From Salipiger bermudensis (lineage in GTDB: Bacteria; Pseudomonadota; Alphaproteobacteria; Rhodobacterales; Rhodobacteraceae), in the NCBI RefSeq assembly GCF_019801965.1, contig NZ_JAHVIA010000010.1:124001-188000 (forward strand): 64,000 bases of DNA. The letters are read 5' to 3'. Position 1 is the first letter of the stretch, and the number at the start of each line of letters is the position of its first letter. Under the pieces are notes generated by a model that did no database searches, was not told the DNA's origin, and saw only the letters and a program-made list of their open reading frames with translations. Below, in pieces: positions 3,501 through 22,033 of this stretch. Both the position numbers and the translations under genes were made by a program.

Positions 3501-4655
3501 TCAGAAGCGGTAGGCAACCTTGAGGCCGACGCCCCAGGCGTTGTTGTCCTCGAACTTGGCGCGGGCCACATCCGGCGTACCGGTTTCGGGCTTGGCGTCG
3601 CCGAGCCAGAAGTGGCTGATGCCGCCCGAGACGGTGACCTGCTCGTTCACATTGTAGGACGCGGCGAGGCGCAGCTGGGTGTAGCCGGTGGTCGGGGCCA
3701 GCGGCGAGACCAGATCGTCGCCCGGACCCTCGTAGGTGGCGCTGATCGCGGCGGAGAACTTGTCGTTGAAGCGGCGGCCGACACCCAGCGTGTAGGCGGT
3801 GCTGTCCTCGAGATCGATCAGGCCGTTGCCGACCACGGTCACGAAGCTGTCGGGATCGACGCGGAACTGCGAGTGCTTGACGTGGCGGATGCCGCCAAAC
3901 AGCAGCGTGTCCTTGGCAATGCCGGTCTGGAAGTCGAGGTTCCAGCTTTCCGGAGTCTTGACCTCGGTCTCGCCGCTGGCGTTGAGCAGCGGAAGCGCCG
4001 GGATCGGGCCGGGGCCATCGGGATCGACAAGCGGACCGGACTCGGTGGTGTCCATGTCGTGGGTGATCGCGGAGTTGTAGGTCAGCGCCACGCGCAGGGC
4101 GATCTCGGGGATCTCGTAGGCCGCGCCGAGCACGTAGCCGACGCCGGTGGTCTTGTCGAGATTGACCTCGTAGCCGCTCACCGCGCCATAGGCGAGGCCC
4201 TCGAGATGGATGTCGCCCGTGGCCTGCTGCAGGCGTAGGCCGCCGAACGCGCTCCAGTTGTCGTTGAACTGGTATTTCGCGAGCGCGGTCAGGGTGTTGG
4301 TGCTGGCCTCGGCGGTGGTGCCGCCAAGCGGGACGTTGCCGCTCTCGTAGGCGATGTCGGCGCCGAAGGGGCGGTCGTAGATCAGCGCCAGCGCCAGCCG
4401 GTCATTGACGTCATACTTGATGCCGAAGGACGGCAGGTAGAAGCCGTCGGCCACGTCGTCGATATCCTGCGCCGGGAATGGCGGCGAGACGTTCTTGCCG
4501 GTGAGCGACGGGTTGGCATAGCCCAGCGAGAATTCCAGCACGTTGCCGGTCTCGTACAGGATCATCGCCGATTGCTGCGTGCGCTCGATGCCGCCCGCGT
4601 GAAGCGCGGTCGCGGACAGGGCCAGCGCCGAGGCACCGGTCAGTAAGAATTTCAT
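3501..4655 (-). CDS. OmpP1/FadL-family outer membrane transporter
   Basis: 384 residues. A signal peptide (MKFLLTGASALALSATALHA, cleaved before GGIER) is followed by alternating amphipathic beta-strand sequence. The protein ends in VAYRF, the C-terminal aromatic signature of outer membrane beta-barrels. The family carries long-chain fatty acids or other hydrophobic compounds across the outer membrane; the substrate here is not known. It is a single-gene unit with its own terminator at 3441-3472. The first 143 nt upstream (4656-4798) hold no gene. Confidence 0.88.
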   Translation of the reverse strand: MKFLLTGASALALSATALHAGGIERTQQSAMILYETGNVLEFSLGYANPSLTGKNVSPPFPAQDIDDVADGFYLPSFGIKYDVNDRLALALIYDRPFGADIAYESGNVPLGGTTAEASTNTLTALAKYQFNDNWSAFGGLRLQQATGDIHLEGLAYGAVSGYEVNLDKTTGVGYVLGAAYEIPEIALRVALTYNSAITHDMDTTESGPLVDPDGPGPIPALPLLNASGETEVKTPESWNLDFQTGIAKDTLLFGGIRHVKHSQFRVDPDSFVTVVGNGLIDLEDSTAYTLGVGRRFNDKFSAAISATYEGPGDDLVSPLAPTTGYTQLRLAASYNVNEQVTVSGGISHFWLGDAKPETGTPDVARAKFEDNNAWGVGLKVAYRF

Positions 4656-4798
4656 GAGTTCCCTCTCCCTAAGGTATTCTCCTCCACCTTCGACGCTAAC
4701 GACGAGGCGGTTGAACGGTCAATCAATGACCCAGCGTAAGTTGACGCGCCGCGCCGTAACGTCACTTTGTCGCATCAGCGGCGGCAGGATGCTGCGGA

Positions 4799-5653
4799 TC
4801 AGCGGGTTTCTCGCAAGATATTGAAATAGTTCGCGCCAAAGATGATCGCGGCGCCGAGGAACACGAAGGGGTCGAGCGTCTCGGCATAGACCAGCATGCC
4901 CACCACGGCGACCAGCGGCAGCCGGGCGAAATCGATCGGCATGACAACCGGAGCGGGTGCGAGGCCAAGCGCGGTGGTGAGGCAGAAATGCGCCACGAGC
5001 CCGGCGATGGCGATCAGCGCTACCCAAGGCCAGGTGGCGAGGCCGGGCAGGGCGATGTCGCCGTCGATGCCGGCGCAGACAAGGCCGAACACCGCCTGCA
5101 TGACGGTGAGCCAGAACAGGATGCAGGCGGTCGAGGCGGTGCGGGTGAGCTTGCGGGTGAACACCGCCGAACCGGCGAATCCCACGCCCGCGAGCAGCGC
5201 CGCGATCAGGCCGGGGCTGATGGTCTCGGGCGTCGGCCGGGCCACCACGAGGATCCCGATGAAGCCGATGCCGGCGGCGATGGCGCGGGTTGGCGTGATG
5301 CGCTCGCCCAGCACCAGCGGTGACAGCAGGATGACCCAGAGCGGCGAGGTGAACTCGAGCGCGAAGACCTGCGCAAGGGGGATGCTGGCCACCGCGAAGA
5401 ACCAGCAGTTCTGCCCGGCGAAATGGCTGATGTTGCGCGCCACGTGCAGGCCGAAGCGGTCCCGGTTGATCTGCGAGAGCTTGCCCGTTGCAGCGAGCAC
5501 AGACGTGACGATGATGGCGCCGATGATCGAGCGGTAGAGCATGATCTCGAACGTGTCGAGATCGAGGCTGACGGCACGTCCCGCCACCGCCATCGCGGTG
5601 AAGGAGACGACGGCCCCGGTCATCCAGAGCACGGCCTGAAGCGTCTGGCTCAT
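4799..5653 (-). CDS. EamA/DMT-family transporter
   Basis: 284 residues, almost entirely hydrophobic, with about ten membrane segments in two EamA-type repeats; proteins of this size in the drug/metabolite transporter superfamily export amino acids, nucleosides or other metabolites. Gly-rich and Pro-containing turns such as LEFTSPLWVILLSPLVLGER are typical of the first repeat. The start at 5653 overlaps the stop of the upstream monooxygenase gene as ATGA, indicating translational coupling. Substrate unknown. Confidence 0.87.
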   Translation of the reverse strand: MSQTLQAVLWMTGAVVSFTAMAVAGRAVSLDLDTFEIMLYRSIIGAIIVTSVLAATGKLSQINRDRFGLHVARNISHFAGQNCWFFAVASIPLAQVFALEFTSPLWVILLSPLVLGERITPTRAIAAGIGFIGILVVARPTPETISPGLIAALLAGVGFAGSAVFTRKLTRTASTACILFWLTVMQAVFGLVCAGIDGDIALPGLATWPWVALIAIAGLVAHFCLTTALGLAPAPVVMPIDFARLPLVAVVGMLVYAETLDPFVFLGAAIIFGANYFNILRETR

Positions 5654-18468: not shown

Positions 18469-18675
18469 TCAGAGGGTTTTGAGGTCGGACGCCATCATGC
18501 GGCCGTCACGGCCTTCCTTGAGCTCGTAGCTCACCTTCTGATTGTCGGCGAGACCCGTGAGACCGGACCGCTCGACTGCTGAAATATGAACAAAAACGTC
18601 TTTTCCGCCCTCTTCCGGCGCAATAAAGCCGTAGCCTTTGGTGGTGTTGAACCATTTCACGGTGCCACTCGGCAT
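18469..18675 (-). CDS. cold-shock protein (CspA family)
   Basis: 68 residues, a single cold-shock OB-fold that binds single-stranded RNA/DNA. RNP1 appears as KGYGFIAP and RNP2 as VFVHISA. AAGGAGC precedes the ATG at 18675. It is convergent with metR. Which Csp paralogue this is, and whether it is cold-induced, cannot be told from sequence. Confidence 0.93.
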   Translation of the reverse strand: MPSGTVKWFNTTKGYGFIAPEEGGKDVFVHISAVERSGLTGLADNQKVSYELKEGRDGRMMASDLKTL

Positions 18676-18903
18676 GTTCCCGTGCTCCTTCCAGTCGTCC
18701 AATGTTGTTGCCCGGCCTGGCCCGGGCGCCCCGTCACCATCGCCTTTCAGGGGATAACACGGCTGAAAATGCCGGATATTCCGGTTGATCGTCGAAGGTC
18801 ACGAAACAAAGCGTTGCACAGGTCAGCCAAAAATCAAGAGAAACACTTCGCTCTCGCAGAGATAGGCGATAATTTGTCGCCGCAAGTCGAAGGAGAAGGC
18901 GCG

Positions 18904-19224
18904 ATGCAGGTTTACGGGCTGAAAAATTGCGACACATGCCGAAAGGCCATGAAGGCGCTGCCGCAGGCGGAGCTAATCGATGTGCGGGCCGATGGGATGC
19001 CCGCCGCGCTGCTCGCAGAGGCGCAGGCGCGGTTCGGGGACAAGCTGCTCAACACCCGGTCGACGACATGGCGCGGCCTCTCGGACGAGGAGCGCGCGAC
19101 GCCGCCGCTCGAGCTGATCGCGGCGCATCCGGCGCTGATGAAGCGGCCGCTGATCGTCGATGGCGATCAGATGTATCTCGGCTGGGACAAGGCCACGCAG
19201 GGCGCGCTCGGCGTCTCTGCCTGA
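18904..19224 (+). CDS. ArsC/Spx-family reductase-like protein
   Basis: 106 residues of thioredoxin-like ArsC fold with a CxxC motif at Cys9-Cys12 (KNCDTCRKAM). Conserved LIVDGDQMYLGW near the end is as in YffB-type ArsC-family proteins. The extra Cys and the lack of the classical ArsC resolving Arg triad argue against true arsenate reductase. Strong GAAGGAGAAGG lies about 5 nt before the ATG. It stands alone and converges with the bufferin operon. Confidence 0.85.
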   Translation: MQVYGLKNCDTCRKAMKALPQAELIDVRADGMPAALLAEAQARFGDKLLNTRSTTWRGLSDEERATPPLELIAAHPALMKRPLIVDGDQMYLGWDKATQGALGVSA

Positions 19225-19228
19225 GCGC

Positions 19229-19801
19229 TCAGGCGGTTTGCGCCGCCGGGGCAAGCCGGCGGGCGACGAGCCGGTCGAGCGCCAGCCAGCCGCCGCCTTT
19301 CAGCACCAGCGTCAGAAAGATCAGCATCCAGAGCAGCCGCTGATCGAGGATCAGCGCGTCTGGGACGCGGTCGAACCAAGCGCCCAGCGTCTCGGGATGT
19401 GCGATGCCGCCGTGGCCGTAGAGATCGGTGAGGCTTTGCACGGTGATGAAGCCGATCATGCCCAGGGCCGCGAGCCGCGTGGCGAATCCGACGACGATCA
19501 GCAGCGGGAGCAGGAACTCGGCCCATGTTCCGGCTGCCGTCACCGCCCAGTGAAACAGGCCGAGCTGGCCCGCGTCATAGCCCACCGCCTCGAACTGGCG
19601 CGGCCAGATCTGGGCGTAGGCGCCTGTCGAGGGGCTCAAGAAGCCAAGCACGCCATCGCCGAGCTTGGTCCGGGCAGATGCCCAGAAATAGCCGAGGAGC
19701 GTGGCGGCGAAAGTCAGGCGGGCGAAGAGCGGCAGCAGGCCCTGCGTGTGCGCCTCGAGCTCGGCGGTGGCACGGCGGTAGAGCGGTATGAGCCGGGTCA
19801 T
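19229..19801 (-). CDS. DoxX-family membrane protein of bufferin operon
   Basis: 190 residues with four hydrophobic segments of the DoxX type (for example LPLLIVVGFATRLAALGMIG). It is the last gene of the bufA-bufB-bufC-doxX unit, overlapping the preceding DUF2063 gene as ATGA. The same order is seen in the Caulobacter gold-induced gig operon. Its role, perhaps redox or membrane handling of the exported peptide, is not established. Confidence 0.85.
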   Translation of the reverse strand: MTRLIPLYRRATAELEAHTQGLLPLFARLTFAATLLGYFWASARTKLGDGVLGFLSPSTGAYAQIWPRQFEAVGYDAGQLGLFHWAVTAAGTWAEFLLPLLIVVGFATRLAALGMIGFITVQSLTDLYGHGGIAHPETLGAWFDRVPDALILDQRLLWMLIFLTLVLKGGGWLALDRLVARRLAPAAQTA

Positions 19802-20529
19802 GACAGGATCTCCGTGATGGCGCCGTGGCCCAGCAGCAGCGCGAGGCAGGGGGCGGGATCGAAGCCGGGGCCGCATTGGGTCACCGCGGCGCCGGGCGGC
19901 ATGTTGGCGCGAAGGGCCGCAAGGAAGGCGTGGCCTTGCGGCGGCAGGACATGCGGCTCGGGGTCGTAATCCGGGCGCAGCACGGCGATCTCCTGTGCGC
20001 CACCGGTGGGCGCGGGGCCGAGGCCGAGCGCGAAGGCGCGGATCTCGGCCACGGGCCAGCGGGATTTCACGAGCTGGACGCTGGGCGCCAGCCGCAGGCG
20101 AGCGAGGCCGAGCCTGTCCTCCGGGATCGAGAGCAGGGCATCGGGCGCAATCGGCGTGGCATCGGCGGCGTGATAGGCGCGGCGCAGCGCCAGCTCGAGC
20201 CGGGCGACATCCGACAGGAAGGGCAGGCGGTCGAGACCGTCGAGCCCGTCGAGAAACGCCGGGAAGGCGGCGCCCCAGTGGATCATCAGCGGGCTCGCCG
20301 GCGGGTGCTGGCGCAGGAAGCGCCCGGCGATGCGGTTGGTGTTGGCCTCGCCCAGAAGCGCCGCGCAGCCCGGAAAACCGGCGGCCAGCGCTTCGGTGAG
20401 CGAGACGGCGACGTTGTTGCGGTAGACGGCGTAGCGCCGTCCGGCGGGGCGGCCCGCGCCATCGGTGAGCCCCTCTGGGATCGGCTGGGCGGCATCGAGC
20501 AGGGCGTGATGGAAGGCGTGCTGGCTCAT
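19798..20529 (-). CDS. bufC: DUF2063 protein, bufferin maturation partner BufC
   Basis: 243 residues. The N-terminal DUF2063 domain (about 5-95) contains [20 protein letters not shown] and FPGCAALLG, and the remainder is a helical C-terminal part. In MNIO-type RiPP systems this protein recognises the precursor and works with the DUF692 enzyme. It overlaps bufB upstream and doxX downstream by ATGA, so all three are translationally coupled. The older label of putative DNA-binding protein is not supported by context. Confidence 0.85.
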
Positions 20530-21377
20530 GCGGCGACCGCGAGCCGGGCCAGCGCCTCCTCGGCCCTGCGGGCTTCCTCGGCCAGCACCGGCCAGGCCGG
20601 AACATCGGTGTCCCATTCGATCAGCACCGGCTTCGGCCCGGAGCGCGCCAGGGTGTGATCGAGCAGCGCCCAGACCGGGTCTGCGACCTCGCGCCCGTGG
20701 CTGTCGATCAGCAGCGGCGCGCCATGATCGTCTTCATCCTCGTCATGGCCGCCAAGATGGATCTCGCCGACCTGCTCCAGCGCGAAGCTGTCGATATAGG
20801 CCTGCGGCGTAAAGCCGAGGTTGGTCGCCGAGACGAAGACATTGTTGACGTCGAGCAGCAGGCCGCAGCCCGTCCGCCGCGCGATCTCGCGGAGAAAATC
20901 GGGCTCGTCCCAGGTGCTTTCGGCGAAGGCGAGGTAGCTCGAGGGGTTCTCGAGAAGCATGGTGCGGCCCAGCGTGTCCTGCACCTCGTCGATATGGGCG
21001 ACGACGCGGGCCAGCGTGGTATTGGTATAGGGCAGCGGCAGGAGGTCGTTGAGGAAGGCGCTGTCATGGGTCGACCAGGCGAGATGCTCGGAGAAGCTCG
21101 CGGGGGTCAACCAGCCCACGAGGTGCTTGAGCCGGGCGAGGTGCTCGGGATCGAGCCGGCCTTCGCCGCCGATCGAGAGGCCGACGCCATGCACCGAGAT
21201 CGCAAAGCGCTCGGCCAGCGCGCGCAGCTGGGCAAGCGGCCGCCCGCCATCGCCCATGTAATTCTCGGCGTGGATCTCGAGCCAGCCCACCGGGCCCGCA
21301 TCGGAGAGGATCTCGGAATAATGCTGCGGCTTGTAGCCGACGCCCGGACGCGCGGGCAGGGTGGTGACGCTGGGCAT
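20526..21377 (-). CDS. bufB: DUF692 multinuclear non-haem iron oxidative enzyme (MNIO), BufB
   Basis: 283 residues with a TIM-barrel DUF692 fold. Candidate iron ligands and active-site blocks are HAEN at 36-39, SEHL at 96-99, ENPSSY at 143-148, DVNN at 176-179 and HLGGHDE at 207-213. These enzymes modify cysteines or Asn in ribosomal peptides using oxygen (MbnB, bufferin enzymes). It lies 74 nt after the cysteine-containing precursor gene and overlaps bufC. Confidence in the enzyme class is high; the exact modification is inferred from related systems. Confidence 0.92.
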
Positions 21378-21451
21378 GGTTCCGTCCTTTGTCGCTTGGA
21401 GATCGCTGAGCAGAGGCGCGGGGCGGGCAGGTGACCCGCCCCGGCGCGGGA

Positions 21452-21757
21452 TCACATGGTGGGCAGGTCGCGCTCGAGCGCTTCCAGCGAGCCCATGCGC
21501 TCGGAGCCGTCGGCCATCGCCGGCAGCTCGATCTCCATGCAGGTGCCGGCGTCGACGAGGCTCCAGGCGTTGCCCTGGTAGTCGACCTTGGAGGTGCCGG
21601 CGCAGGTGGTGCCGGGTCCGGCGGCGCAATCGTTCTGGCCGGCCATGGCGACACCGAAGCATTTCTCCTTCTCCTGCGCCGCGGCCTGATGCGCGGTGAG
21701 GGTGACGGCGGTGGCGACGGCGCTGAGCAGAGCGGCGGTCTTGAGGGTCTTGGACAT
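21452..21757 (-). CDS. bufA: bufferin-type precursor peptide (DUF2282)
   Basis: 101 residues. The signal peptide ([20 protein letters not shown] then TAHQAAA) precedes a short core with exactly four cysteines at 33, 44, 52 and 73. The blocks [14 protein letters not shown] and [13 protein letters not shown] match the DUF2282/bufferin-1 pattern. A 28-residue acidic tail follows the last cysteine. GGGAGAG lies 6 nt before the ATG. The family is exported after oxidative conversion of cysteines to heterocycles and binds copper. The leader holds an inverted repeat at 21784-21818. Confidence 0.9.
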
Positions 21758-21818: not shown

Positions 21819-21903
21819 CAAGCCTGCCGCGAGAGCGATGAGTGGGCCATTCACGGCCCCGTGGCTCACGTGTGTGTCACCCTACGTCAACGCGCATGAG
21901 GTG

Positions 21904-21981: not shown

Positions 21982-22006
21982 CGCGGCCGCTATGTTACAA
22001 ACGAAA

Positions 22007-22033
22007 CGGCCCCCGCGGGGAACGCGGGGGCCG
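22007..22033 (-). terminator. Rho-independent terminator of thrS
   Basis: An 11-bp perfect stem (CGGCCCCCGCG) with a GGGAA loop is followed on the minus strand by TTTCGTTTG. It begins about 30 nt after the thrS stop. Confidence 0.85.

Follow-up and report, generated by a model that had tools for sequence, protein, structure and literature searches.

Bufferins are a recently described and widespread answer to copper stress, and the cores of their clusters combine genes for a precursor, an MNIO enzyme, a DUF2063 protein and a DoxX protein (PMC12452194). The founding Buf1 acts through copper, roles beyond copper have been suggested, and the same source mentions oxidative or sulphur stress. Buf1 precursors carry four conserved cysteines, of which the central two are modified and the outer two joined in a disulphide (PMC12452194; Fig. 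3 legend for the pairing), and some clusters contain tandem bufA copies. DUF2282 precursors are also treated within the thiooxazole "captophorins" (PMC12668002). The corresponding Caulobacter operon responds to copper under SigF control, and mutation of sigF makes the cells sensitive to copper but not to chromate or cadmium (PMC8224329).

Here, we add one member to this group from Salipiger bermudensis. Within the window (the entire 64,000-nt stretch analyzed, positions 124,001 to 188,000 of contig NZ_JAHVIA010000010.1, assembly GCF_019801965.1), positions 19229–21757 of the minus strand are, as judged from sequence, a complete bufA-bufB-bufC-doxX operon with the published Buf1 bufferin core (Table 1). 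Because that core has been published and several public records are already named BufA1, the operon belongs to a known kind. Its least ordinary feature is a DNA element upstream of bufA that is absent from the initial annotation of this stretch; the element and the apparent change of promoter type in much of the family look to be the new part of the finding.

Table 1. Features of the bufferin locus, in window coordinates and in order of transcription.
Feature	Position	Strand	Description	Profile match
Terminator-like hairpin	22007..22033	-	T-rich tail; after upstream gene (thrS by eye), before bufA promoter region	
Extra TnAC half-site	21886..21889	-	window reads TGAC; 10 bp upstream of double dyad; columns -19 to -16	
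Double-dyad element	21849..21879	-	TnAC-N6-GTGA-nn-CAC-N6-GTGA-n-T; upstream of bufA; window copy 0/15 specified bases wrong	
-10-like hexamer	21821..21826	-	CAGGCT; weaker C form of [C/T]ANNNT	
bufA	21452..21757	-	DUF2282 (Buf1) bufferin precursor, 101 aa	PF10048 86.1 bits, cut-off 22.4, E 1.6e-24
GC-rich hairpin	21416..21447	-	bufA-bufB spacer; no T tract following	
bufB	20526..21377	-	MNIO (DUF692) cysteine-modifying enzyme, 283 aa	PF05114 343.3 bits, E 1e-102
bufC	19798..20529	-	DUF2063 partner of MNIO, 243 aa	PF09836 83.9 bits, cut-off 27.2, E 1e-23
doxX	19229..19801	-	membrane protein, 190 aa	PF07681 22.7 bits, slightly below cut-off 23.6, E 1.6e-4

The initial annotation had described four genes, a precursor with exactly four cysteines, and ATGA overlaps joining the last three genes, all of which are borne out by the ORF list and coordinates (minus strand; overlaps at bufB/bufC and bufC/doxX); bufA and bufB are separated by 74 nt. 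Its bufferin-type reading, made dependent on profile searches, also stands: these return DUF2282, DUF692 and DUF2063 for bufA, bufB and bufC, and so include the homology check of bufA that it had suggested. Its statement that all four genes are normally labeled as unknown or DNA-binding is out of date: several of the relatives listed are already named "BufA1 family periplasmic bufferin-type metallophore." Named loci include those of Ruegeria, Phaeobacter and Salipiger, which are marine genera. The nearest named protein relatives are from Salipiger (83–84% identity), and the nearest named locus is from S. bermudensis itself (BufB 92%, BufA 93%). The source genome (4.83 Mb in 32 contigs) contains a single DUF2282 match and a single MNIO match.

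Gene order is uniform among near kin, which is what the 80 loci compared are, being the best 80 of 546 confirmed relatives. In all 80, bufC and doxX follow bufB; bufA precedes it in 79, the remaining contig (L066) beginning just before bufB, and in one further locus (L004) the contig ends within bufA. More broadly, 70 of 100 Rhodobacteraceae genomes searched contain a DUF2282 match; one genome of the same genus (G088) does not. Two loci feature tandem bufA genes ahead of a single bufB (L075, at 4225–4521 and 4657–4956, and L123 from genome G007). At least 61 of the 80 loci have a thrS-like gene upstream, and at least 42 have an ArsC-like ORF close by. Beyond doxX in the window, we recognize by eye an ArsC/Spx-like reductase gene (about 18586–19224, on the plus-strand side of the ORF list) and a cold-shock-like protein (18469–18702, minus strand). 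One record titled Nocardioides marinus (L077, JAHVJD010000002.1) also harbors the operon and the same upstream element, its bufB being 81% and its bufA 83% identical to those of the window; N. marinus is an actinobacterium, and the assembly is perhaps mislabeled or contaminated.

BufB scores 371.8 bits against NCBIfam NF050167 (MNIO_BufB), above the equivalog cut-off of 310, and falls below the cut-offs of HvfB (224.7 against 360), MbnB TIGR04159 (61.8 against 325), ApyH and ChrH. It aligns with its family over almost its whole length and matches 3bww and MbnB chains. The DUF2063 partner of Buf1 clusters is a fusion with an RRE-type domain; in BufC, PF09836 covers residues 5–95 only, and the NCBIfam HvfC RRE equivalog reaches 50.4 bits, below its cut-off of 142. 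The doxX product, whose profile score is sub-threshold, fits its name by position and by model: a homologue is present in 80/80 near loci, and the AlphaFold model (pLDDT 88) features long helices at residues 22–44, 82–104, 108–129 and 150–168 plus shorter ones. A PDB fold search with this model returned no match under E 0.001. The DoxX family name, together with the mention of oxidative or sulphur stress in PMC12452194, points to a redox role, which the protein perhaps has here. The initial annotation listed DoxX among the less understood parts; it is a usual, though not obligatory, partner of the other three, and the four-gene core has been published with it (PMC12452194, PMC3511200).

The precursor retains Cys33, Cys44, Cys52 and Cys73 invariantly in 74 aligned rows, and it scores only 18.1 bits against the BufA2 profile NF050166 (cut-off 60). 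Because only the central cysteines of Buf1 are described as modified and the outer two as bridged, modification here would fall on Cys44 and Cys52, and Cys33–Cys73 would form the disulphide; these assignments, and copper binding by BufA, are carried over from relatives. By eye, the N-terminus is hydrophobic and Sec-like with AAA before Q28, and the signal is probably cut after AAA27. The AlphaFold model (74 rows; mean pLDDT 76, pTM 0.58) is poorly ordered over residues 1–30 (pLDDT 48–63), reaches 71 over residues 41–50 around Cys44 and 88 over residues 81–100, and drops to 58 at the last residue; no PDB fold matched it under E 0.001. The high values over 81–100 suggest, with moderate confidence, that the tail is an ordered part of the domain. 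The 28-residue tail had also been called less understood. Its length is as described, but the tail shows conservation and a predicted fold rather than a loose end, which would tell structural work where the BufA domain ends.

Across 70 family genomes that tail spans 15–61 residues past the last cysteine, 43 genomes having 27 or 28; in 30 loci of other Alphaproteobacteria it spans 11–27. Conservation centers on an old GSL-like motif (G[SGT][LS]), found after the last cysteine in 29 of those 30 loci; the longer form G[SA][LS]xx[LI]xRD[LIMV]P occurs in 60/70 family genomes and 78/80 of the near set, and in 4 of the 30. Four loci (L124, L129, L228 and L247) feature tails of 43–61 residues, beyond the family norm.

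Upstream of bufA, the element with its half-site extends over 43 bp and consists of TnAC, TnAC-N6-GTGA and nCAC-N6-GTGA-n-T, that is, a half-site followed by two 14-bp palindromes at a distance of 15 bp. The near set provides 80 upstreams (79 loci with bufA, plus the window), of which 79 are readable, L004 being without DNA. A 23-bp core was recovered in 79/79, window included, compared to a mean of 0.05 in letter-shuffled sets, although this count is partly circular because the weight matrix was trained on the same upstreams; an untrained regular expression matches 63/80. Across 47 dereplicated rows (<70% identical), information is concentrated at columns -19 to +23, where the invariant columns hold 1.86 bits, and is mostly below 0.4 bits outside, the exceptions being a -10-like site and isolated columns (for example, +61). 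The -10-like [C/T]ANNNT lies 20 or 21 bp past the element in 43/47 rows (other offsets, mean 0.85 rows), and the stricter TANNNT occurs at the same spacing in 31/47 (other offsets, mean 0.15). A sigma70 consensus scan found no promoter at the window's bufA upstream. For a candidate element above a -10 box, an activator fits better than a repressor.

Other signals in this region were set aside. A palindrome upstream of bufA, TGTCATATGACA, is striking by eye and was rejected on finding it in 1/80 upstreams. Conserved GTTAC/GTAAC words apparently belong to the surroundings of the terminator that ends the upstream gene rather than to a sigmaF promoter. The words CTGTAACA and ATGTTACA (reverse complements counted) each occur in 61/80 bufA upstreams and, at 22000–22033 in the window, apparently also surround that terminator. 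The bufA-bufB spacer is itself structured; the window's spacer, scored as 77 nt, has a z of only -1.5 as a whole and its 51-nt core a folding energy of -28 kcal/mol (z -3.4), and a stable structure (z under -2) is present in 58 of the 71 relatives scored, namely those of the 79 loci with a placed bufB start. An Rfam search returned no RNA at gathering score. A survey of the literature on DUF2282, bufferins and copper, Ruegeria copper transcriptomics, and DoxX with DUF692, based on the papers cited here and mostly outside subscription papers, yielded no such upstream element.

The element also separates from sigmaF control across the Rhodobacteraceae genomes sampled. No match to the anti-sigma factor NrsF occurs in the source genome, while the same search detected the Caulobacter control, and the best GTAAC-N16..18-CGAA match upstream of the window's bufA has 2/9 bases wrong and sits at -190. 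Among the 100 family genomes, NrsF is present in 14. We read the bufA loci of the 70 genomes with DUF2282, one of which (G098) is without upstream DNA, leaving 69, and scored the element at up to 2/15 bases wrong and a sigmaF-like GTAAC-N16..18-CGAA at up to 1/9 wrong within 130 bp. The element is present in 46/69 genomes, namely 46 of 58 NrsF-negative and 0 of 11 NrsF-positive; the Caulobacter-type promoter occurs in 10 of 11 NrsF-positive and 0 of 58 NrsF-negative genomes; and by these thresholds 13/69 carry neither. Letter-shuffled family upstreams gave none in 20 rounds. NrsF itself lies on the bufA contig within about 3 kb in 10/11 genomes and on another contig in the last (G083). Beyond the family, a sigmaF-like site (up to 1/10 wrong) precedes bufA in 10 of 28 readable upstreams, drawn from 30 loci of other Alphaproteobacteria, and no element score above 15 was found among these 28.

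Much of the family has thus apparently swapped sigmaF control for another regulator. A quick BufB tree (95 rows) contains many open forks and long branches, and the promoter types need only about two changes on it; the genome counts are therefore not independent, the Fisher value of 7e-7 reflects kinship rather than independent events, and one or two historical events are implied. One genome (G010) sits amid element-bearing rows at an open fork, yet carries both NrsF and the sigmaF promoter. We consider it an evenly balanced proposition that the ECF sigma factor and NrsF were lost and that control passed, through the two-dyad operator, to a dimeric activator encoded at an unlinked site. This activator could be a new sensor of copper or another metal, and it would act chiefly on this operon and on few other targets; G010 would then represent a reversion, a transfer or a remnant.

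Within 5 kb, the greatest reach of the flanks, no regulator is conserved in most of the 80 near loci; a protein that resembles ArsR by eye is encoded 4–5 kb upstream in 13/80. Across 61 family genomes, the strict form of the element has a single exact match in each of 7, and all seven loci carry bufA. In the source genome, the double dyad occurs twice at up to two mismatches, one occurrence being bufA (0 mismatches), and a 21-base pattern has 23 matches at up to two mismatches compared to 8 for the control; its next-best match after bufA (1 mismatch) lies inside an ORF on another contig. Further matches per genome (up to two mismatches) average 2.8 in the 46 element genomes (reversed control, 1.1), 1.8 in bufA genomes without the element (control, 0.9) and 1.4 in the 30 genomes that lack bufA (control, 1.5). 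Given the excess of 2.8 over 1.1, we dropped the idea that the element is almost confined to the bufA operon; the operon is the main recognizable target, and there may be a few others. The element offers a fixed DNA target for fishing out the regulator, and hence the signal that switches bufferins on.

Taken as a whole, the locus is probably best explained as a Buf1 bufferin operon for excess periplasmic copper, controlled by a sigmaF-independent dimeric regulator, given that BufA, BufB and BufC exceed their cut-offs, near kin share the gene order, the genome holds a single bufA and a single MNIO gene, and the chemistry of Buf1 is published. Transcription would start from the operon's own promoter, past the terminator-like hairpin, and would be switched by a putative dimeric regulator, most likely an activator, bound at the double dyad above the -10-like site, rather than by sigmaF/NrsF; we infer this regulator and its sign from relatives or logic. 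BufA would be made in the cytosol, where BufB and its partner BufC, by analogy, would oxidize Cys44 and Cys52 to thiooxazoles. After export by Sec, the Cys33–Cys73 disulphide would form and the product would bind copper, with DoxX as a membrane partner in a perhaps redox-related role. The hairpin after bufA may allow the precursor to outnumber the enzymes.

The same biosynthesis could serve mainly against a stress other than copper, namely gold, chromium, cadmium or oxidative/sulphur stress, and DoxX would then contribute to that function. The response of one related operon includes gold in addition to copper (PMC5413113), a second operon depends on sigmaF during exposure to chromate and cadmium (PMC3511200), bufferin roles beyond copper have been suggested (PMC12452194), and the changed regulation here means that the inducer may differ too; however, the founding Buf1 works through copper (PMC12452194) and the Caulobacter sigF mutant is sensitive to copper rather than to chromate or cadmium (PMC8224329), and we regard this reading as possible but doubtful. 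It is unlikely that the upstream element serves a different extracytoplasmic sigma factor as its core promoter instead of being an activator site. Relatives do use ECF sigma factors at this operon, sigmaF and, in Sinorhizobium, RpoE7 (PMC6180224), and the TnAC and CGTGA blocks can be read as -35 and -10, but two 14-bp palindromes are unlike a bipartite promoter, and a separate -10-like hexamer stands at a fixed distance in 43 of the 47 rows.

We consider it very improbable that the element was kept merely by close kinship and has no regulatory function. The thrS-like neighbor does point to vertical descent, yet in the dereplicated rows the surrounding columns have mostly lost their information while the invariant columns of the element have not. 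Decay of the operon, or a precursor left unmodified in this strain, is likewise very improbable: the absence of DUF2282 from G088 speaks for it, but all four frames are open, the four cysteines are intact, BufB aligns nearly full length, and the precursor family persists in 70/100 family genomes.

Buf2 (BufA2), oxazolin/HvfA and methanobactin clusters likewise employ MNIO enzymes on cysteines, but the BufA2, HvfB and MbnB cut-offs are missed here. Cupriavidus metallidurans and Legionella have a GIG (gold-induced genes) operon that comprises the same four families, and its response to gold and copper was measured (PMC5413113). The RpoE7-EcfR7 target SMb20527-20530 of Sinorhizobium meliloti encodes DUF692 and DUF2063 proteins with a small membrane-like first gene and is called orthologous to CC3254-3257; control there is by an ECF16 sigma factor, and the promoter printed for SMb20530 contains TGTAAC and GCGAAT (PMC6180224). 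Finally, the unit in Caulobacter to which the initial annotation had rightly pointed is bufferin-1 of C. vibrioides, CC3254-3257 (CCNA_03363-03366), which has the same DUF2282-DUF692-DUF2063-DoxX order, DoxX included, and a precursor listed at 93 aa compared to 101 aa here (PMC3511200, Table 1 of that source). The two part at the promoter: Caulobacter relies on sigmaF/NrsF and a GTAACC-N16-CGAA promoter, whereas the Salipiger genome is without NrsF and carries the double-dyad element instead.
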